From positions 62,001 to 126,000 of the forward strand of contig NZ_PDEQ01000009.1 in the NCBI RefSeq assembly GCF_002554795.1: a stretch of DNA of 64,000 nucleotides, in the 5' to 3' direction. Positions 4,791 through 26,444 of this stretch are shown here, piece by piece (positions within the stretch are counted from its first letter, which is position 1; each line of letters begins with the position of its first letter). Both the position numbers and the translations under genes were made by a program. The DNA comes from Longibacter salinarum. Lineage in GTDB: Bacteria > Bacteroidota > Rhodothermia > Rhodothermales > Salinibacteraceae. The notes under the pieces were generated by a model that saw only the letters and a program-made list of their open reading frames with translations, ran no database searches and had not been told where the DNA came from.

Positions 4791-4864
4791 GGGCCCGTAG
4801 CTCAGTTGGTTAGAGCAGTCGACTCATAATCGATCGGTCGTGGGTTCAAGTCCCGCCGGGCCCA
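4791..4864 (+). tRNA. tRNA-Ile2 (CAU anticodon), island attachment site
   Basis: A full cloverleaf can be drawn. The acceptor stem GGGCCCG pairs with CGGGCCC. The D arm is GCTC/GAGC, the anticodon arm is GTCGA-CTCATAA-TCGAT, the T arm is GTGGG-TTCAAGT-CCCGC, and the discriminator is A. The anticodon is CAU. The loop and flanks (GACTCATAATCG, then GGTCG) match the pattern of bacterial tRNA-Ile2, whose C34 is converted to lysidine by TilS, better than elongator or initiator tRNA-Met. CCA is not fully encoded. The 3' half (4822-4865) is repeated at 23992-24035, marking it as the integration target of the island downstream. Confidence 0.95.
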
Positions 4865-4865
4865 C
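4822..4865 (+). repeat. attL: 44-base direct repeat inside tRNA-Ile2
   Basis: The left copy of the 44-base direct repeat, from the anticodon loop (ACTCATAAT...) through the discriminator (CCCAC). Identity with the right copy at 23992-24035 is complete by eye; the bases just outside differ on both sides (g/t before, c/t after). The tRNA stays intact on this side, as usual when an element restores the 3' end of the gene it enters. Confidence 0.92.
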
Positions 4866-4885
4866 CCTCATGTTGGAGCAAAAAG

Positions 4886-4930: not shown

Positions 4931-5247
4931 TTGCTAAACCGAGGCCGCAGACGGGCCGCGAAAGCAGGATTATGCAGGCGATTGCAGAATTGTGCGTAGG
5001 ATGGGGGTAAAAGGGATTGGAGCGTTTAACAGGTGCTCATAACGGGGAAGCTGAGGTGCGGAGGGCGAGAAAACGCCAACCGGAGTGCTGACCGACAAAA
5101 TAACAACGCCGAACGGAGTCGTTGCCACTTCCGACCAGCGAAGACGAACTCGCCTACGAGACCTCGATCGATGACGGCACGAGCCCTCCGTCAACTCTAG
5201 CGATGTGTTATGCCCGCCTTTCACAGTACACATCACAGTGGAGGAGA
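4931..5247. other. intergenic, island left margin
   Basis: No gene recognised. This stretch lies between the tRNA terminator and the 3' end of the minus-strand nuclease-TPR gene. A plus-strand open frame beginning at 5122 runs antisense into that gene and has no motif. Nothing else is seen. Confidence 0.4.
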
Positions 5248-7293
5248 CTATCCCTCATCAGGAAAAAGCCCCAATTCATCGTTGATTGCTTTCAATACGG
5301 AGGTGATCGTACTATTGTGGTGATCCTCCGGGTTACAGTAGGTAGTTGCCTCATTCAGCTTCTCCTTCAAGACAGACAATCGGCCTCCGATCCATCCATA
5401 TTCAGCACTTGCCTCCCGTAGTGCAAGCAGCGCCATAAACAGGATAATCTCTGTGAGCCTCCCTGATGTCTCCTCGTTGGAGAGGTCACTGGTAAAGTAA
5501 TGGGCAAATGGTCGGCTGGCGGCACTTACGGCTTCCTCGACTAGAGCGTAGATTTTTTGCTGCAGTGAGACGAGGACATCAAGGTTCTCTGTATTCTCGT
5601 CAACCGAAAATTCCATCCCGAGTCCGAAAGGAACGGCAAGAAAGGTTCTGAGGGCCTGAAGTACCCGTTCTTCTCTTGGTGCAGGATAGCCAAGGTGATA
5701 GAGAGCATGGTCTTCATTCCAGTATTTTGCTATCGGCACGCTTCGCCTGAACTGGGTATACTGAGGAAAAAACCAAAGGGCACGAGTGCATTGATCAATT
5801 GAAAATCCTGAGGCTCGGAAGGATACCTCTTCTATTCCGGCAAGCTTTAGACACTCATCTATCAGATCCCAAGCCCTCTCGACGTTTTCTTCCTCGTTCT
5901 CGAGACGTATCAGCCTAACGCGGGCGTCATAAAACCTTGGATCTCTTTCGAGGCGCCTCTCCCAGAACTGGCGAGCATCGCTTGTAATTTCCGCATTTGT
6001 TTCAGTGAGCTGTGCCAGCACCTCGGACTTCAGGTGTGTTAATCCTTCGTGTCCGGGTTGATGAGTTAGCCCTCTGTTAATCCATTCCAGAGAGTTTTGA
6101 AATCTCTCAGCCCGATAGTTTGATAGGCCAAGCCAATACCAAGTTAATGGATTATGCGTAATCCAGTCTGGATTATGATTTACACCCCGCTCAAGAAATG
6201 TCGCTGCTTGATCGGGTTTGTCAAAATCGATAAGAAGACTGATACCCTTGCTAACTAATGCCTCTGGCTTTGTTGGCTCCAATTCAAGTGCGCGGTTGAA
6301 GCACTCCATCTCCGCTTCGTGATCTCCGACCTGGTGGTACGCACTTCCTAAGTTTTTTAGGAGCGATGAACGCTCGGATTTCTCACGGGCCTCCTCATAT
6401 GCCTCAACAGCTTCTTCGGCCTTGCCCAAGGCACTGAGAGCATTTCCTAGATTATAGAAGTCGGCCCAGGTCGGATCGGACTTTTCCTCGATAACCTTTC
6501 GGAACAGTTTGCAGCCCTCCTCAATAGCCTCCCTATTGTTTTCTGCGATTCCTTTTTCCGTAAGGGTACACGCTCGACTCAAACGGAGCATTTCCCTATC
6601 ATGTCCTAGCCGGGAGGCCCGGTTGAGACTCGCGATTGCTTCATCATATCGGTGAAGTTGGTACTGAGCGACCGCGCGAAAGTACCAACCCTGACTAGAT
6701 TCAGGATGCTGTCCAACAAATTGCTTCAACCGACTTGCTGCACGCTCCGGCTCCTCTGACTCTAGTAGCTCAAGTGCCGTTGAAAGCTCTTCTTCCAGAT
6801 CTTCATCAGTTCCTATGTTGAAGAGAAGCTCCGGAGTGCGTCCCGACACCTCTACGGAAAGATACTTCTGAGCAAGATCAGGGTGTGCCTCTTCCAGTTG
6901 AAGGCGCAGCCATTCCCTGGAGAATACAACGAGGTCCCACCCATACTTCTCGCAAAGCTCGTCCGTCAACTGATCTCTGTCGATTCCACGGGCTTCCTGA
7001 GACGTTACGAAAACCAAAGTTTCGAACTCATAATCACGCTCATTCAGTCGTTCCGCGTCTTCCCGCAGTTTTGTCTTCCAATCGTTTCGGAGGCTAAATT
7101 GAAAAAAGCAGACGTTGCCATGTCGTCCTCTTCCCCGTCGCGGATATTCCTCCGCATCTCTACCTCCATCTTGGGGTTCAATCGGCTCTATCTCCCTGTA
7201 ACCGTTTCTGTACAGTAGCTCGGTGGCTAGCCGTTCGAAGGACCGGGGATCAAGCTCATTGTCTATAGTCCAAAGTATCTTGTTAAATGACAT
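5248..7293 (-). CDS. PD-(D/E)XK-like nuclease domain fused to TPR repeats
   Basis: A 681-residue protein. Residues ~1-150 resemble an Mrr/restriction-endonuclease-like domain: FERLATELLYRNGY, then GGRDAEEY, a strand with FFQFSLRNDWKTKL (QxS in the usual QxK place), and YEFETLVFVTSQEARG. Residues ~170-470 are a run of TPR-type helical pairs (WYFRAVAQYQLHRYDEAIAS, FYNLGNALSALGKAEEAVEA, LLKNLGSAYHQVGDHEAEME). Residues ~480-681 are helical and unassigned. Nuclease-TPR architectures are common among candidate phage-defence proteins, where the TPR part senses or recruits. It is the first island gene beside the tRNA and stands alone. The substitution in the nuclease motif leaves activity open. Confidence 0.75.
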   Translation of the reverse strand: MSFNKILWTIDNELDPRSFERLATELLYRNGYREIEPIEPQDGGRDAEEYPRRGRGRHGNVCFFQFSLRNDWKTKLREDAERLNERDYEFETLVFVTSQEARGIDRDQLTDELCEKYGWDLVVFSREWLRLQLEEAHPDLAQKYLSVEVSGRTPELLFNIGTDEDLEEELSTALELLESEEPERAASRLKQFVGQHPESSQGWYFRAVAQYQLHRYDEAIASLNRASRLGHDREMLRLSRACTLTEKGIAENNREAIEEGCKLFRKVIEEKSDPTWADFYNLGNALSALGKAEEAVEAYEEAREKSERSSLLKNLGSAYHQVGDHEAEMECFNRALELEPTKPEALVSKGISLLIDFDKPDQAATFLERGVNHNPDWITHNPLTWYWLGLSNYRAERFQNSLEWINRGLTHQPGHEGLTHLKSEVLAQLTETNAEITSDARQFWERRLERDPRFYDARVRLIRLENEEENVERAWDLIDECLKLAGIEEVSFRASGFSIDQCTRALWFFPQYTQFRRSVPIAKYWNEDHALYHLGYPAPREERVLQALRTFLAVPFGLGMEFSVDENTENLDVLVSLQQKIYALVEEAVSAASRPFAHYFTSDLSNEETSGRLTEIILFMALLALREASAEYGWIGGRLSVLKEKLNEATTYCNPEDHHNSTITSVLKAINDELGLFPDEG

Positions 7294-7527
7294 GAGTAAT
7301 ATTTTCTGATAAACTGAGCCTCCACATGAAGACTCACTTATAGATAGACCTATATCAAATGCTTGGTATCGAAATCTACTCCCTGTGTGTCGATCGGAGG
7401 ATTACGGAGACTTCCGTTATGCATAACGGAGGAACTCTGCCGCGACGGGCAGGAAAAGGTATAGCGCCAGCAGCCGAAACGCTACCGCCGGAAATTAGCC
7501 GCTGCCCGTCGTCGGCAGCAGTGCGGG

Positions 7528-7860
7528 TTATGCTGCTGAATGATTGGATTGCGTACCACCCCGGAGCATCTTCACGACAATGGCTACAGAGGAAATCACG
7601 ACGGCCAAAATCAGCGGAAGTCCAAGGAGCACAGCCCACCAATACGGAAGGATCGTCACAAAGTAGACGAACGACTCGGGCAGTGCGCGAATGATCGACT
7701 GTATGCCCGTCACCTCGACTTCTCCGTTGGCGATCAGATCCCCCCAACCCAGTCCGTACAGAAGAATCAACAAGGCTGAGAGGCAAATACCAAAGGTTCT
7801 CGCGAAGAACTTCCAAAGGCTCCGCCATCGGCTCGCCTTCTCATCTGTTTCTCCGGCCAT
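7528..7860 (-). CDS. small two-TM membrane protein
   Basis: A 110-residue protein with a charged N-terminus and two hydrophobic segments (about residues 25-41, LSALLILLYGLGW, and 68-95, a long stretch through LGLPLILAVVISSVAIVVK), predicted to span the membrane. No family recognised. Directly upstream of its start (7898-8020) lie several copies of a TATCC(G/A)GA-type repeat that could regulate it. It shares the minus strand with the nuclease-TPR gene about 230 bases downstream. A holin-like or abortive-infection effector role is conceivable but unsupported. Confidence 0.6.
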   Translation of the reverse strand: MAGETDEKASRWRSLWKFFARTFGICLSALLILLYGLGWGDLIANGEVEVTGIQSIIRALPESFVYFVTILPYWWAVLLGLPLILAVVISSVAIVVKMLRGGTQSNHSAA

Positions 7861-7897
7861 AACACACTTTCACGGTGGAGCAGCATAACATTATAAT

Positions 7898-8032
7898 TAT
7901 CCGGAAGGCTTCGGGATAGCAAAAACTATCCGGACTAAATCGGTCCTCAGCGACGCTGATGCGACATTAGCGCAATGAGTGCTATCCAGAAGGCTTATGG
8001 AATTACGCACACTATCTAGACAATGTCCAGAA
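7898..8032. repeat. iteron-like cluster of TATCC(G/A)GA motifs
   Basis: Five related short motifs occur within ~135 bases: TATCCGGA (7898), CTATCCGGA (7926), CTATCCAGA (7982), CTATCTAGA (8012) and TGTCCAGA (8024). The first and third continue as AAGGCTT, giving a longer repeat. They lie between the 3' end of the integrase gene and the start of the small membrane protein, a place where integrase arm sites, excisionase sites or repressor operators are often found. Confidence 0.5.
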
Positions 8033-8088: not shown

Positions 8089-9234
8089 CTACTTGTCCCC
8101 AAACACCTCCTCCATCACGTTCTTCGACGCGCTCGGTATCAGATGAGCGTACTTCTGCGTGACCTCCGTCGAGCTGTGACCGAGGACTTTGCTTACCACA
8201 GCTATGGAGGCTTTACGCTGCACCATCCATGAAGCAAACGTGTGGCGTAAGGAGTGAAAGCGAAAGCGGTCAGAGAGCCCAGCCTCCCGGACGTAGTTTT
8301 TGAACTGCTTGGACATGTAGGTCGCATTGAGTTTGTCTCCCCGGTAGCCGTGGAAGACGTATGCGTCGCCTGTCCCTTCATGATTCGCCTCCAGACGCTC
8401 GAGAACGCGCTCTGCTCGGCCGACCACCGGAACGCTGCGCTCGTGGCCGCTCTTCGTTCTGAAGCCATCCTCAGCACCAGAGGCATCCACGTTTCGGACG
8501 GTGATGTATCCCGTCTCCAGATCCACGTCGTGCCAACGTAGGTGAACGATTTCGCCGGCACGGAGTCCGGTGTGCACGGCGATTTCTACCACGTCTTTCA
8601 GCCAGACGATCTGACCTTCCTGGACTTCCCCCTTCTCGCGCTTTGCCTCGTAGTCTCGCTGGATTTCCTCAAGAATGGCGTCGACCTGTGTCTCCGTCAG
8701 AAACTCCGGGACTCGCTTTCCGGGCCTCGGCTTGAGGACGTCGTTGATCGGGTTGTACTCGATGTGCCCCTCTTCTTCTGCCCAGTTGAAGAAGGTACGG
8801 AGGTGCCGGTAGCGATAGGCTCTCGTACTCTCCCGTACGTCGCCATCCTGCACGACGCTGTCTACCTGGTCGGCCGTGACGTGGCTCAGTTTTAACCCGA
8901 CCGGGAGAACCAGGAGAAGCGTATTCATCGCCGACCGATACGCCTTGATCGTCGCGGGCCGGAGCCTCTGGCGCGTCTCCATGAACAGGCTGACCGCCTG
9001 CTCGACGGTCGGATTGTCCGTTCCTGTTGTGCGGTTTGGATTCCATGGATCAAGCTCACCCGAGGCCACCTCCTCCTCGAGCTTGCGTGCCTTCTTCTCT
9101 GCCACCCTCTTCCGCGTCGTACCCAGGGGAAAGGACTTCCGGGCCGGGTCCTTCTGCGGATTGTAGAAGTAGGCGAAGTACCGGTTGTCGATCTTCCGTA
9201 TGGACTGTAAACGGGTCTGCGTGGCTACGCTCAT
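8089..9234 (-). CDS. tyrosine recombinase / phage-type integrase
   Basis: A 381-residue site-specific recombinase. The N-terminal ~60 residues look like an arm-binding domain (RYFAYFYNPQKDPARKSFPL). Residues ~75-165 form the SAM-like core-binding domain. The catalytic set is complete: Arg225 (HTGLRAGE), Lys261 in the beta-hairpin, His327 and Arg330 (HSLRHTF), His353 (LGHSS) and nucleophile Tyr362 (KYAHL). It is the best candidate for inserting the island at tRNA-Ile2 by cutting within the 44-base att core, although it lies 3.2 kb from the tRNA end. A second, unrelated-looking recombinase is encoded in the same island. Confidence 0.93.
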   Translation of the reverse strand: MSVATQTRLQSIRKIDNRYFAYFYNPQKDPARKSFPLGTTRKRVAEKKARKLEEEVASGELDPWNPNRTTGTDNPTVEQAVSLFMETRQRLRPATIKAYRSAMNTLLLVLPVGLKLSHVTADQVDSVVQDGDVRESTRAYRYRHLRTFFNWAEEEGHIEYNPINDVLKPRPGKRVPEFLTETQVDAILEEIQRDYEAKREKGEVQEGQIVWLKDVVEIAVHTGLRAGEIVHLRWHDVDLETGYITVRNVDASGAEDGFRTKSGHERSVPVVGRAERVLERLEANHEGTGDAYVFHGYRGDKLNATYMSKQFKNYVREAGLSDRFRFHSLRHTFASWMVQRKASIAVVSKVLGHSSTEVTQKYAHLIPSASKNVMEEVFGDK

Positions 9235-18544: not shown

Positions 18545-19501
18545 CTAGATTCGGATGCGCTCGATCTCCTCTTGCTGCACGTTCTGGCTCCGGCGATCAT
18601 AGAGCTTCGTGGTCGTCGCAGACGCGTGCCCTGCGATATGCTGGGCGGTTTCAAGCTGCCCACCATTCTCAAGGTACGTCGTGATGCCGGTGCCACGAAA
18701 CGTATGGCAGCAGACCTGGTCGGGATCGAACCCGGCGTCCAGGGCCCTGCGCTTCACCATCTGCAGGATGTTGTCAGACTGCAGTCGACGTCCGGTCAGT
18801 CGACCGGTGCGCCCCTTCAACGACTGAAAGAGAGGTGCATCGCGCTCTCCGTGTAAACCGGCGGCCGCAAGGTAGGCGTCCAGATACTCGCCGGCCTTGT
18901 GATGGACGGGGATGTCCCGCCGCTTTCCTCCTTTCTCCTGCAAGTGAAGCATCCAGCGATGACCGGCCTGGAAGTAGTGCCCGACGTCCAGACGGGCCAC
19001 CGCAGACACGCGGGCGAACGTGTAGACCATCACCCCGATGATGGCCCGATCGCGCAGCTGCCCTACGTCTGAGGCGTCCTCCACGACCGAGTCGATCAGC
19101 TCCCGCGTCTCGCCCGCCGTAAGCACCGGCGTCTTCCCCGACTCCACCACCAGCTTCGGAGGGCGCACGGGAGCAGCCGGGTTGTCTTTGATGACCTGCC
19201 CGGTCACCAGCCAGTCGAAGAGGCGGCTGATCGCCGACAGGTGCTGCTTGACGGTTGCCGCAGAGCGATCGTCCTCCTCGACGTACGCCGCGACGTGGAC
19301 GGGCTCGATGGCCTTGAGCGTGAGGCCCCGAGCGGATGCCCAATCAAAGAATTGGCGCACGGCCCGGCCGTAGGCCTTCCTCGTGTTCTTGTTGCGGATC
19401 TCCGCGGTAAAGAACTCGATCACCCGACGACCGGCCTGCTCACTGGCATCTGCAAGCACAGGAGGCAACGTCGAGCGGAGCTGTGGCACGAGGTCGGACA
19501 T
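18545..19501 (-). CDS. tyrosine recombinase 2 (Xer-like)
   Basis: A 318-residue recombinase of a different branch from the 8089-9234 integrase. It has a SAM-like N-terminal domain (residues ~25-105) and a catalytic domain with Arg164 (TFARVSA, a variant of the usual TGLRxSE), Lys190, His266 and Arg269 (CHTFRGTGIT), His292 (IAGHAS) and Tyr301 (KLYDRR). ATG 19501 is chosen because the frame upstream lacks domain character. The FARVSA/HTFRGTGIT form recurs in recombinases of plasmids and transposon-like elements. A deleted copy of this gene lies outside the island at 26191-26444. It is not an IntI: no IntI-specific insert is seen. Confidence 0.9.
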   Translation of the reverse strand: MSDLVPQLRSTLPPVLADASEQAGRRVIEFFTAEIRNKNTRKAYGRAVRQFFDWASARGLTLKAIEPVHVAAYVEEDDRSAATVKQHLSAISRLFDWLVTGQVIKDNPAAPVRPPKLVVESGKTPVLTAGETRELIDSVVEDASDVGQLRDRAIIGVMVYTFARVSAVARLDVGHYFQAGHRWMLHLQEKGGKRRDIPVHHKAGEYLDAYLAAAGLHGERDAPLFQSLKGRTGRLTGRRLQSDNILQMVKRRALDAGFDPDQVCCHTFRGTGITTYLENGGQLETAQHIAGHASATTTKLYDRRSQNVQQEEIERIRI

Positions 19502-19658
19502 AGCGGCGTTTTTTAACTTGGGAGGAAGACATTTCCCAGCAGGGGCCCGACCTGTATTCTTACGCACAACCACATCGGCCTGATGAGGTGGCAAACCGAT
19601 TTAGGCACGCAGCGCAATATTTCGATCGATCAACCTGCTCACGCGATAAATTCTCAGT

Positions 19659-20615: not shown

Positions 20616-21051
20616 ACACCTGAAAGGCCACGCGTCGCCCAGCTCTATCTCAGAGTATGTATCAAGGTATCACTGTCCTTAATACAAATGACCGAGTCAC
20701 CCTACCACCTACGGCATGACAGAATTGAGTCTTAGGTACGCTTAGGTCGCTGGTGTTGGCATCGGATAACTGATTTTATCCGCCACGACTGGTGGGCCCA
20801 TTCATCAGCGCATGACTCCGAAACCGGCCTCTAACTTAAGGTGATCCATGACATCGCAGTATTGCGGAATCTCTTGTCAGTGTCCCAGATGTGCTTTGTT
20901 CTTATTGACTTCGACGGAATCGTTCGGCATATTACATGAAGAGGATTCACCATTCTATGCGAACTCGTTCTGAAGTAGATATCTCATACAGAGCACAGCC
21001 GTGAGCAAGCACTGCTGTTCGAGCTACCTTTAATTACACCTTCTTGCTGCG
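20616..21051. other. upstream border of cassette array (possible attC)
   Basis: No gene seen. Within it, CTCTAAC (20829-20835) and GTTCGAG (21017-21023) could be the outer boxes of a long (195-base) attC. GCCGTGA at 20998 sits 19 bases before the second box, as GCCGGTGA does in the clearer sites downstream. The left half of this site is less convincing than the right half. Confidence 0.35.
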
Positions 21052-21288
21052 ATGGACATCTCGATTAATGAGCAAGATGCTAAAGATCTATTAGAGGACG
21101 ACTTTCCCCACATAGTCCGAGTGACTGAAGAATCAGATTCAGAGGGTGGCGGGAAAGTCAAGGTGTCTGTGGAAATACGCAATCAGAATATCCGCCTCGA
21201 TGTACGGAAGTGGGATGGTGCTGGCAAGCTGACATCGGCCAACAGCAAAAACATCTCGTTTGGGGAGTTGATCGATGAACTCGGGTAG
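21052..21288 (+). CDS. cassette 1: hypothetical 78-aa protein
   Basis: A small acidic protein: helical N-terminus (INEQDAKDLLEDDFPHIVRV), then strands VKVSVEIRNQ and IRLDVRKW and a C-terminal helix. No family recognised. The start is 35 bases after the inferred crossover at 21017/21018, and its stop is followed at once by an attC-like site (21314-21440). Small unknown proteins are common integron cargo. Confidence 0.65.
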   Translation: MDISINEQDAKDLLEDDFPHIVRVTEESDSEGGGKVKVSVEIRNQNIRLDVRKWDGAGKLTSANSKNISFGELIDELG

Positions 21289-21313
21289 TGTTTTTTCGGG
21301 ACCCAACAACTCA

Positions 21314-21440
21314 GCATAACAACGCCATGCACCCGGAACGTGGGCTGATGCGCGTAGGCTGTTGGTACGCTACCTTGAAAGACAATCACTTCGACTGATC
21401 GCTGGCGTGCCCTCGGCCGGTGATGGCCAAGCCGTTATAT
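21314..21440 (+). other. attC-like site 1 (127 bases)
   Basis: The R'' box GCATAAC (21314-21320) and R' box GTTATAT (21434-21440) are inverted complements at the ends. Inside, CATGCACCCGG faces CCGGTGATGG, allowing the two-part stem (R and L arms) of an attC hairpin. GCCGGTGA at 21416-21423 lies 18 bases before R'. The right end overlaps the longest open frame of the next gene, which argues for a later start of that gene. Confidence 0.75.
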
Positions 21441-21461
21441 AGACTCCCGCGACTTAAACTG

Positions 21462-22250
21462 ATGAGACTGACTGATCTGCCGAAGGATGAGATACTTGAC
21501 CCATCGTGGGTTGCTGACTACCAGACTAAATATGACGCCCTCTGGCAGCAGGTGACCTTTTTGGTTAATCGCATGTACATCAACGGCAAGGTTTCAGAGT
21601 TTCCTATAGACCTGTTCTGCCCACCCCATCGTTCAACATTTCTAAGAGAGGTATTCTTCACCTTCTACCAAGCCGCGCTGATGTGCATTTGGCGCATCGC
21701 TGTTGACACCGGAAGGGATTTTCTGACAATCAGAGGTCTGAAAAATCAGATCGCAGCGAACATCAGGAAGGATGGACCTCACGACCACAGCGAACTCAAA
21801 GAGGCGTTCCTAGACCTAGTGCGCGCCTCAGACTTCGAGCAAGTTGTTGGAGCCGCCGAGGAGAGCGTCAGGGATCTTCGTCACTCTTACCTGGCTCACC
21901 TTAGAACAGCGCGTGTCGATGGAACAGATCCGAGGACATCGGCTCCTCTTCCCGTTGCGCGTCTTGAGAAGCTGACAGAAGCCATCACGCGCCAGATGAC
22001 CGTCTTGGGATTTGGGCTAGAGCGCCCGTACCTGTTGCCAGAGTACAACGACAGAATCCGCCAGCCGGTCGGAAGACGTGGCGAACCTGACATAGATCGG
22101 CTGCTCACCCACGTAGTAGCAGACAGCGAGATCATCTATTGGCCCGAAAAAAGTCCTCAGGGTTGGAAATTCAGACGCCCCGGACTTTCAGAGGAAGAGC
22201 TTAGCTGGTTTAACCACTATAGAGAGAAATTGGGGTTGCCACGAGCATAG
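21462..22250 (+). CDS. cassette 2: AbiU2/HEPN-like protein
   Basis: A 262-residue helical protein resembling AbiU2-type HEPN proteins: FFTFYQAALMCIWRIAVDTG (residues ~65-84), FLTIRGLKNQI, and RHSYLAHL with Arg140 and His146, matching the HEPN R-x4-6-H catalytic motif. HEPN proteins are often RNases acting as toxins or abortive-infection effectors; AbiU2 relatives are also found without partner antitoxins. ATG 21462 is chosen because ATG 21420 lies inside the preceding attC, left of the crossover at 21434/21435. Similarity is by motif only, and the C-terminal ~90 residues are unassigned. Confidence 0.7.
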   Translation: MRLTDLPKDEILDPSWVADYQTKYDALWQQVTFLVNRMYINGKVSEFPIDLFCPPHRSTFLREVFFTFYQAALMCIWRIAVDTGRDFLTIRGLKNQIAANIRKDGPHDHSELKEAFLDLVRASDFEQVVGAAEESVRDLRHSYLAHLRTARVDGTDPRTSAPLPVARLEKLTEAITRQMTVLGFGLERPYLLPEYNDRIRQPVGRRGEPDIDRLLTHVVADSEIIYWPEKSPQGWKFRRPGLSEEELSWFNHYREKLGLPRA

Positions 22251-22258
22251 CCAGGTCC

Positions 22259-22390
22259 GCATAACCCGGTGCTGCACAGGACGATGGGGCAGTAACGTCT
22301 CTTACGGTCGCTCGCAGTTAGGTCGGTCCTCCGATAACATTACACCTCGCCACTCGCCTGTCCATTGCCGGTGATCACCATGCGCTATAC
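22259..22390 (+). other. attC-like site 2 (132 bases)
   Basis: The R'' box GCATAAC (22259-22265) pairs imperfectly with GCTATAC (22384-22390), which has C where a canonical R' has T. The inner arms GGTGCTGCACAGG and CCGGTGATCACC are complementary with a bulge. GCCGGTGA at 22367-22374 is 17 bases before R'. It is degenerate but has the same geometry as its neighbours. Confidence 0.65.
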
Positions 22391-22424
22391 TGTGTCTTAA
22401 TCACTTAATAATACTTTAAACAAG

Positions 22425-23210
22425 ATGAGTAACACATGGCCTAACGACATTCATCAACTCATTTTTATTCCGAACGTTGAAGGGGCTTTCAATGATCTAG
22501 CGGAATTGGCAGAGGATGAGGTTTGGCACTACGTCAATGAAGAGCGACAGGAGGATTCGGAAAAGTCTATGCCTGTGTTGTACAACTATGTTAAGTACAC
22601 TTACAGAAGGCTTGCTGAGGAAGACAAAGTTGTTGTCGCAGATAATGGTGGCTCGATTGTATTCAACACAGGCTTAGTTACTGAAAGCCAAGAGCCTATC
22701 TTTTGCTACTCAGACCAGAACCGCATGCAGGACGTTGATGTGCCTTGGCACTTCCAAGGGTGGATAAGAAAAGGCGACTGGAAGCTGAACGGCTTCTCTA
22801 CGCTTCCGCCAATGGCGCACTATTATGACGATCCGGCTTCTCTAGTGCTTGATACTCGGAAGGAAATCAGAGTCAACGTTGAGCACATCATTCGTGATAA
22901 TAGAGATCGATTTCCTGAGCCTTACGACTCGATGAGCACTTTTCAGCTTCAGACGTTTCTGAAAGGGACAATAGATAACGCAATTGAAAGGGCGAAGCGG
23001 AACTACAAGGCAGCCGTTCCCCAGTACCACCAGGGTAGAATTCAGATCTTGCTGCCTCTCTGCTTGTCAAACCCTAACGCTGCAGACCTAGCTCTGGTAG
23101 TTGAAGACAAAGGTGCTTTCTATCGTGCATCGACTTGCCTTCCTCTGGATTGGGCCTACAACAACGCACGTCAACTGGCACGGCCAGATAGAGACTGGCT
23201 CAAGCCGTGA
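22425..23210 (+). CDS. cassette 3: DUF3825-domain protein
   Basis: A 261-residue soluble protein matching the DUF3825 pattern: VLYNYVKYTYRRLAEEDKVV, then SIVFNTGLVTESQEPIFCY, WHFQGW, a central helical part, and the end LPLCLSNPNAADLALVVE followed by YRASTCLPLDWAYNNARQLA. DUF3825 occurs alone or with OST-HTH/NYN-type RNA-binding modules and lacks a firmly known function. The start lies 41 bases after the crossover at 22384/22385. Base use is visibly more AT-rich than the chromosome flanks, in line with foreign origin. Confidence 0.78.
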   Translation: MSNTWPNDIHQLIFIPNVEGAFNDLAELAEDEVWHYVNEERQEDSEKSMPVLYNYVKYTYRRLAEEDKVVVADNGGSIVFNTGLVTESQEPIFCYSDQNRMQDVDVPWHFQGWIRKGDWKLNGFSTLPPMAHYYDDPASLVLDTRKEIRVNVEHIIRDNRDRFPEPYDSMSTFQLQTFLKGTIDNAIERAKRNYKAAVPQYHQGRIQILLPLCLSNPNAADLALVVEDKGAFYRASTCLPLDWAYNNARQLARPDRDWLKP

Positions 23211-23229
23211 GAAGGTGTAAGTTAAAACC

Positions 23230-23345
23230 ATATAACAAGGCGCTGTACCAGACGGTGTCGGTATGCGCTTTGAAATATATTAGTGTCGCATGTGCTCACG
23301 TCGAGTCGTGGTGTTGCCCCCGCCGGTGAGCGCTACTCGTTATAG
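23230..23345 (+). other. attC-like site 3 (116 bases)
   Basis: The clearest site. ATATAAC (23230-23236) continues as AAGGCGCTGTACC, and its partner is AGCGCTACTCGTTATA. The two ends fold as TATAAC/GTTATA plus GCGCT/AGCGC plus ACC/GGT with one or two extra bases, as in attC bottom-strand hairpins. R' is GTTATAG (23339-23345), and GCCGGTGA at 23322-23329 precedes it by 17 bases. Confidence 0.82.
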
Positions 23346-23369
23346 TGCCCTTCACAGAAAGCCCCCAGC

Positions 23370-23744
23370 ATGACAACAAATCACAACTATTGGCTCGTCG
23401 GCGCGAACTGGAGTGGAGATGACAAATCCGACGCTTTTTACCGTCGGGGCTATTGGGAAGTTGGGTATAGCGACGAACAAAAACCGGCGTTTGCAGCCAA
23501 AAGAGACCAAATGAAGGCCGGTGACCGAGTCGCCGTGAAGGCGATGCGGGGACGTGGCGCCTCAACAATCACGATCAAAGCTCTGGGTGTCGTGAAGGAG
23601 GTTCACGACGGCAAGGTTTACATCGATTGGCTTCTTACGGACCTTAATCGTGAAGTTGAAAGCAAGGGCTGCTTCCAGACAATTCATGGTCCCTATGGTA
23701 CGAAGCGAGAGCCAGAATGGGTGAAGGAAGTATTCCACATCTAA
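23370..23744 (+). CDS. cassette 4: EVE/PUA-like domain protein
   Basis: A 124-residue single-domain protein: NYWLVGANWSGDDKSDAFYR, GYWEVGY, MKAGDRVAVKAMRGRG, ITIKALGVVKEVHDGKVYID, then EPEWVKEVFHI. This matches the EVE/PUA-like domain found at the N-terminus of many McrB-type and other defence NTPases, where it reads modified bases in DNA or RNA. Here it stands alone as a cassette, so any nuclease or NTPase partner must be elsewhere. The start lies 30 bases after the crossover at 23339/23340. Function inferred from domain resemblance. Confidence 0.75.
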   Translation: MTTNHNYWLVGANWSGDDKSDAFYRRGYWEVGYSDEQKPAFAAKRDQMKAGDRVAVKAMRGRGASTITIKALGVVKEVHDGKVYIDWLLTDLNREVESKGCFQTIHGPYGTKREPEWVKEVFHI

Positions 23745-23750
23745 GCAACA

Positions 23751-23872
23751 ATATAAAATAGCTCTACACCTGACGGCATCCGGATACGCTTTGAACTGAC
23801 CGCCATGTCTGGCTTGCTCACCACAAGGCCCCTTACTCACTCCAAGACCACTGACTCAGTGATCTGTTTGGA
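23751..23872 (+). other. attC-like site 4, degenerate (122 bases)
   Basis: Its left part, ATATAAAATAGCTCTACACC then TGACGG and later ACGCTTTGAA, closely parallels site 3 (ATATAACAAGGCGCTGTACC, AGACGG, GCGCTTTGAA), so the two are related by descent. The proposed R' is GTTTGGA (23866-23872), with CAGTGA a few bases before it. The boxes have drifted and the site may no longer recombine. Confidence 0.55.
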
Positions 23873-23991: not shown

Positions 23992-24035
23992 ACTCATAAT
24001 CGATCGGTCGTGGGTTCAAGTCCCGCCGGGCCCAC
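23992..24035 (+). repeat. attR: 44-base copy of tRNA-Ile2 3' half
   Basis: Identical to 4822-4865 from the anticodon loop to the first base after the acceptor stem. The 5' half of a tRNA is missing, so this is not a functional tRNA gene. It is the original chromosomal 3' end left behind when the island integrated. Confidence 0.92.
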
Positions 24036-26108: not shown

Positions 26109-26190
26109 CTTTACCGCACCCAATAGCGCTCCTGTAGGCTTCCCCGAAATTCGCCCGGTCGGAAATAGAATATTCTTATCCTCGATCACG

Positions 26191-26444
26191 TAGCTGGGCA
26201 ACGCCTGAGGCCTCTTCGACGACGGAATCAATCAGCCCTCCTCTCTCACTTGCGGTGAGCCACCGGCGTCTTCTCCGACTCGACCACCAGCTTTGGAGGG
26301 CGGACGAGCGCAGCCGGATTGTCCGTGATGACCTACCCGGTCACCAGCCAGTCGAAGAATTGGCTCGCTGGCCAGCCGCCTCACCGGCATCTGCAAGCAC
26401 GGGAGGCAACGTCGAGCGGAGCTGCGGCACGAGATCGGGGGGCA
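26191..26444 (-). pseudogene. deleted copy of tyrosine recombinase 2
   Basis: The DNA aligns closely with the 5' part of the island recombinase gene. 26191-26360 matches about 19055-19215 (shared words GTCACCAGCCAGTCGAAGA and CACCGGCGTCTTC), and 26375-26438 matches about 19430-19496 (shared GGCATCTGCAAGCAC, GGCAACGTCGAGCGGAG). Roughly 200 bases between these blocks, and all of the catalytic 3' part, are missing. It therefore encodes nothing functional. It records an earlier insertion of a related element next to the present island. Confidence 0.8.

Follow-up and report, generated by a model that had tools for sequence, protein, structure and literature searches.

The window, i.e., the whole 64-kb stretch of DNA analysed here, carries a genomic island of 19.2 kb bounded by a tRNA. 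The tRNA-Met (CAT) gene at 4791-4866 on the plus strand forms the left edge, and a repeat of the 3' end of this tRNA, matching 44 of 44 bases of 4822-4865, forms the right edge at 23992-24035 on the plus strand. A tyrosine recombinase of 381 aa is encoded inside, on the minus strand (8089-9234). A direct repeat at both edges and an internal tyrosine recombinase are the features of a tRNA island, and the row of plus-strand gene cassettes at its far end thus lies within such an island, as the initial annotation had placed it. The island holds another tyrosine recombinase of 349 aa (18545-19594, minus strand), and broken pieces related to this protein, at 70-88% identity, are present just outside the island at 26179-26436 on the minus strand. 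The two recombinases of the window were rejected as integron integrases (IntI), with 54.7 bits for the 381-aa protein and 43.7 bits for the other, against a cut-off of 265 for the profile TIGR02249. An Rfam search returned the tRNA only. Apart from the tRNA, the flanks of the island are practically without DNA matches in the other 26 genomes of the family, and too little is conserved there for an empty-site comparison.

The plus-strand row comprises four small genes, each followed by a complete or partial attC site, the stop codon being separated from the start of each attC by 6-26 bases. Cassette gene 1 (21052-21288; 78 aa, without a convincing family) is followed after 26 bases by attC 1 at 21314-21440, with the outer boxes GCATAAC (21314) and GTTATAT (21434). 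Cassette gene 2 (21462-22250; 262 aa) has a weak similarity to HEPN/AbiU2, which at E 0.002 is below the Pfam cut-off, and precedes attC 2 at 22259-22390, with GCATAAC (22259) and GCTATAC (22384). Cassette gene 3 (22425-23210; 261 aa) encodes a DUF3825 protein (PF12873, E 6.5e-74) and precedes attC 3 at 23230-23345, with ATATAAC (23230) and GTTATAG (23339). Several proteobacteria carry plasmid-encoded hypothetical proteins that are 38-42% identical to the 124-aa product of cassette gene 4 (23370-23744), and this gene ends beside a truncated attC 4 at 23751-23830, which retains only the 5' two thirds and is devoid of 3' boxes. The outer boxes of sites 1 to 3 were found where the initial annotation had read them, as was the octamer GCCGGTGA in three sites (21416, 22367 and 23322), and the start codons lie roughly 28-41 bases past the crossovers, as proposed (ATG at 21462, 22425 and 23370). 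A near match to the octamer at 20998, also put forward, was no better than shuffled sequence and is attributed to chance.

A recognisable attI was not found beside the plus-strand array, and none of its four cassettes had a counterpart in any other integron. Among the 394 genomes of a phylum sample, two distant homologues of the DUF3825 cassette were found, neither of which is adjoined by attCs of the family type. A plasmid search with the entire region as query gave a single match of 44 bases.

The array had been described as lacking an integrase, which is correct for its surroundings, where no IntI was found, but not for the genome. The search of the full genome for intI, which had been suggested as a check, yielded an intact gene on another contig, C2. 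In 4.4 Mb on 22 contigs, it is the only full IntI and the only one over the cut-off (C2:756029-756973), scoring 400 bits to TIGR02249, against the cut-off of 265, in a profile search. Against 2a3v, a Vibrio integron integrase of solved structure, the protein scores 267 bits, with conserved catalytic motifs (R, H..R, H, Y); its identity to IntI1 is 49% over the full length. The gene is adjoined by an attI region and by two textbook attCs, whose sequence type is that of site 3 in the window. On these sequence features, the C2 IntI is likely the cognate enzyme, present in trans. Because it is encoded on C2, the description of the plus-strand row as an array without integrase holds locally only.

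The identity of the attC sites was assessed with two covariance models, both built without sequence from the window. Model R1 was made from 21 attCs of other species in the same family, taken from intI-adjacent arrays and with the window's own genome excluded, and model R2 from 59 attCs. The attC structure in the relatives is strongly supported: in the R1 alignment 89.6% of cells are paired, and covariation is 0.398, compared with 0.166±0.017 after shuffling and no more than 0.121 after sliding. Over the 64-kb window, R1 gave five matches at E≤10, namely sites 1-3 and those of a second, minus-strand array, and R2 likewise gave only five matches at E≤10, three of them sites 1-3. The scores, whose E-values are rough here and below because the model calibration was shortened, were 23.0 bits (E 0.0037) under R1 and 30.0 bits (E 1.3e-5) under R2 for attC 1, 19.4 bits (E 0.024) and 31.7 bits (E 4.5e-6) for attC 2, and 38.4 bits (E 1.2e-6) and 48.6 bits (E 1.1e-10) for attC 3. 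The covariance-model check thus recovered three attCs in the array, not fewer than two.

Sequence comparison and architecture point the same way. Sites 1-3 fit the attC structure of paired R''/R' and L''/L' boxes, an unpaired spacer and extrahelical bases; site 4 lacks the 3' boxes. The alignment of sites 1 and 2 with two intI-adjacent attCs beats 300 of 300 shuffles; site 3 is 73% identical to the intI-adjacent attC L009:12584-12699, and the pattern GACGGTGTC...GCCGGTGA is common to site 3 and the intI-adjacent attCs. In site 4, the first ~80 bases (23751 to ~23830) match the attC family, beating 500 of 500 shuffles, and the homology ends there. No covariance-model match was obtained for this site, even with the filters off. 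Site 4 was rejected as a full attC, its proposed GTTTGGA box being unsupported, so that three of the four attC-like sites first proposed stand as such and the last as a truncated remnant.

Folding energy by itself is weak evidence for an attC. The folding check favoured site 3, which folds somewhat better than its shuffles (z -1.8), but not sites 1 and 2, which were not separated from theirs. Since sites 1 and 2 are also weak under R1, they may be partly decayed. Their shuffle-like folding would also be expected if the sites were intergenic repeats or transcription terminators that resemble attC boxes by chance, and a scan for boxes plus a stem does produce such chance matches frequently. Yet two models trained on outside sequences match only these sites and the minus-strand array, and an attC of the same type adjoins a true intI, which makes chance resemblance extremely improbable. 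The box-plus-stem scan was itself rejected as an attC detector, being too permissive, with many chance matches in ordinary DNA; it did reveal an attC at 7421-7533.

Clusters of attC without integron integrases are referred to as CALIN (PMC8618304, PMC7923331). With three attCs clustered between 21314 and 23345 (R2 E at most 1.3e-5) and no IntI nearby, we conclude, with a probability of about 93%, that 20.83-23.87 kb is a CALIN of four gene cassettes, with three attCs between them and one truncated attC at the end.

The same island holds a second array at 5037-8030 on the minus strand, outside the range of the initial annotation, and its attC scores exceed those of the plus-strand array. It is led by an attI-like site (7883-8030, minus strand), which has 84% identity over 152 bases to the intI-adjacent attI region; the similarity stops at GTTATGC (7889-7883), and attC cassettes follow downstream. 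The first cassette gene (7528-7860, minus strand; 110 aa) probably encodes a membrane protein and is followed by the strongest attC of the window (7421-7533, minus strand; R1 93.7 bits, E 3.6e-19; fold z -4.3). The second (5248-7293, minus strand) encodes 681 aa, with a restriction-endonuclease-like N-terminus and TPR repeats, and is followed by a long-form attC of 177 bases (5037-5213, minus strand; R1 61.6 bits, E 6.9e-12; R2 83.3 bits, E 4.5e-20). The 681-aa protein has a full-length homologue of 82% identity in an intI-bearing array of another genus (L031:13067-15109), and this location is good evidence of cassette exchange. Together with the DUF3825 protein and the weakly HEPN/AbiU2-like protein of the plus strand, this predicted protein hints at a defence role for the cassettes. 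As no intI lies within the window, neither array forms a complete integron there as an intact unit.

Known integron integrases fold and recombine the bottom strand of attC, and by analogy IntI would fold the bottom strand of each attC here and recombine at that strand. The plus-strand cassettes may have been captured by the C2 IntI or a close relative and then parted from it via off-site insertion, rearrangement or transfer of the island. With the matching integrase encoded elsewhere in the genome, the row could still be moved, and its cassettes may remain substrates for IntI in trans. The last attC being without its 3' end, the terminal cassette would be unable to excise alone. Additionally, as there is no attI promoter beside the array, expression would need promoters within or upstream of the cassettes.

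Two other histories of the plus-strand row have to be weighed. The row may be the remnant of an integron that was once complete at this same place and lost its intI and attI, which would leave it a CALIN today regardless. Arrays of the family without a full intI do often adjoin broken intI pieces, as at G015 C1:1134757-1135640, G013 C17:20966, G018 C97 and G023 C1:783664. However, the 3 kb upstream of the plus-strand array are devoid of any intI or attI remnant, and the sole similarity there is that of the 349-aa recombinase, which is not an IntI (E about 1e-5); decay in place is therefore rather unlikely. It is less probable again that the row was once continuous with the attI-led minus-strand array and was relocated by inversion or by the island recombinases. 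Such a history would suit two arrays lying in opposite orientation in one 19.2-kb island, with two tyrosine recombinases in the window, but the attC subtypes differ, site 3 being like the attCs of C2 and C1 and the minus-strand ones like other subtypes, and an inversion junction was not found.

The attI-like site is not confined to the window. An attI module of ~150 bases is present in five copies in the genome, against one intact intI. Besides the copy next to intI on C2 and that of the window, two lie on C1, at 146 kb and 581 kb, and one on C5; the five loci are L009:11164-11312, L074:18486-18633, L076:10407-10553, L077:14205-14347 and window 7883-8030. The copies are 75-87% identical and share a sharp left edge, common within a few bases, while their flanks are unrelated. 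They end at a GTTAT-type box, which reads ATTATAT in the copy at 581 kb on C1, and most contain several TCCGGATA repeats. Four copies are followed downstream by attCs in the same orientation; the C5 copy reaches the contig end. The contig ends of C2 and C5 (L009:13743-13877 and L076:11216-11350) have 135 bases in common at 98.5% identity, with an attC-like start, which puts breaks of the assembly within cassette arrays. Arrays stand at an end of contigs C2, C5 and C6. One of the extra copies lies ~5 kb from another tRNA island, at a tRNA (Lys) (L077:2228-2303 and 8765-8812), whose integrase is 28% identical to that of the window.

Judged from the sequence, what surprises in this system is the presence of attI copies at scattered places that lack intI. 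A tentative reading, which falls a little short of even odds, is that of a distributed integron, in which a single IntI would serve five or more scattered attI platforms, with cassettes loaded in trans; four of these platforms have no intI, and one of the four is on a tRNA-integrated island. For the four extra copies, the 3 kb upstream contain no intI remnant, the sole notable similarity being the 381-aa island recombinase. In the related genus g7, lone similar attI sites often have broken intI pieces nearby, and decay is thus a real alternative origin for the extra attI copies. The attI sites of the related genus (L028:1500-1706, L084 and L097) carry repeats of a different word, TTGACATAT, which may be protein-binding sites, and end in ATAATTATA.GTTAT-type sequence, as here. 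In the sister species G003, the left half of an attI lies at L082:4730-4797, on a contig without intI and with an attC match ~1 kb downstream. No published case of several attI sites with one intI was found in the open-access literature, which is not proof of novelty.

CALINs are common, and their source is usually not known. Here one genome and its relatives show a CALIN together with an array led by attI, attCs of the matching type and the likely cognate IntI, and this makes testable whether CALINs are dead remains or satellites fed in trans. The interest lies mainly in the dispersed attI copies. If these work, an integron is not necessarily one locus, and islands could bear loading docks without an integrase. 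Should the distributed reading be true, one of several cassette-loading sites would be potentially mobile.

The initial annotation took an integron array in a Rhodothermota-like tRNA island to be not commonly described. Integrons proved common in the family of the window: IntI above the curated cut-off is present in 13 of its 27 genomes and attC matches in 24 of 27. In the lineage that the annotation proposed, a complete integron has been reported in Salinibacter ruber M1 (IntegronFinder 2.0 paper, PMC9024848). A near-complete relative, G023, has 24 attC matches on its contig C1 (3 contigs in all) and only broken intI genes; its genome is rich in integron sites, but the integrase has been lost. 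The plus-strand CALIN is ordinary in kind and belongs to an integron-rich family. As in known CALINs, attCs are clustered without an adjoining intI, here three within 2.1 kb in one orientation with one gene each; unlike those, it shares its tRNA island with a second, attI-led array, and its last attC is truncated. The halophile Salinibacter ruber M1 has, by description, a complete intI-bearing integron, as does the genome of the window on contig C2, whereas the arrays of the window are without intI. Compared with the class 1 integron (IntI1, attI1 and resistance cassettes), the attC architecture is alike and the integrase 49% identical, but the present system is chromosomal, no resistance cassettes were recognised in it, and its attI differs in sequence and exists in several copies.
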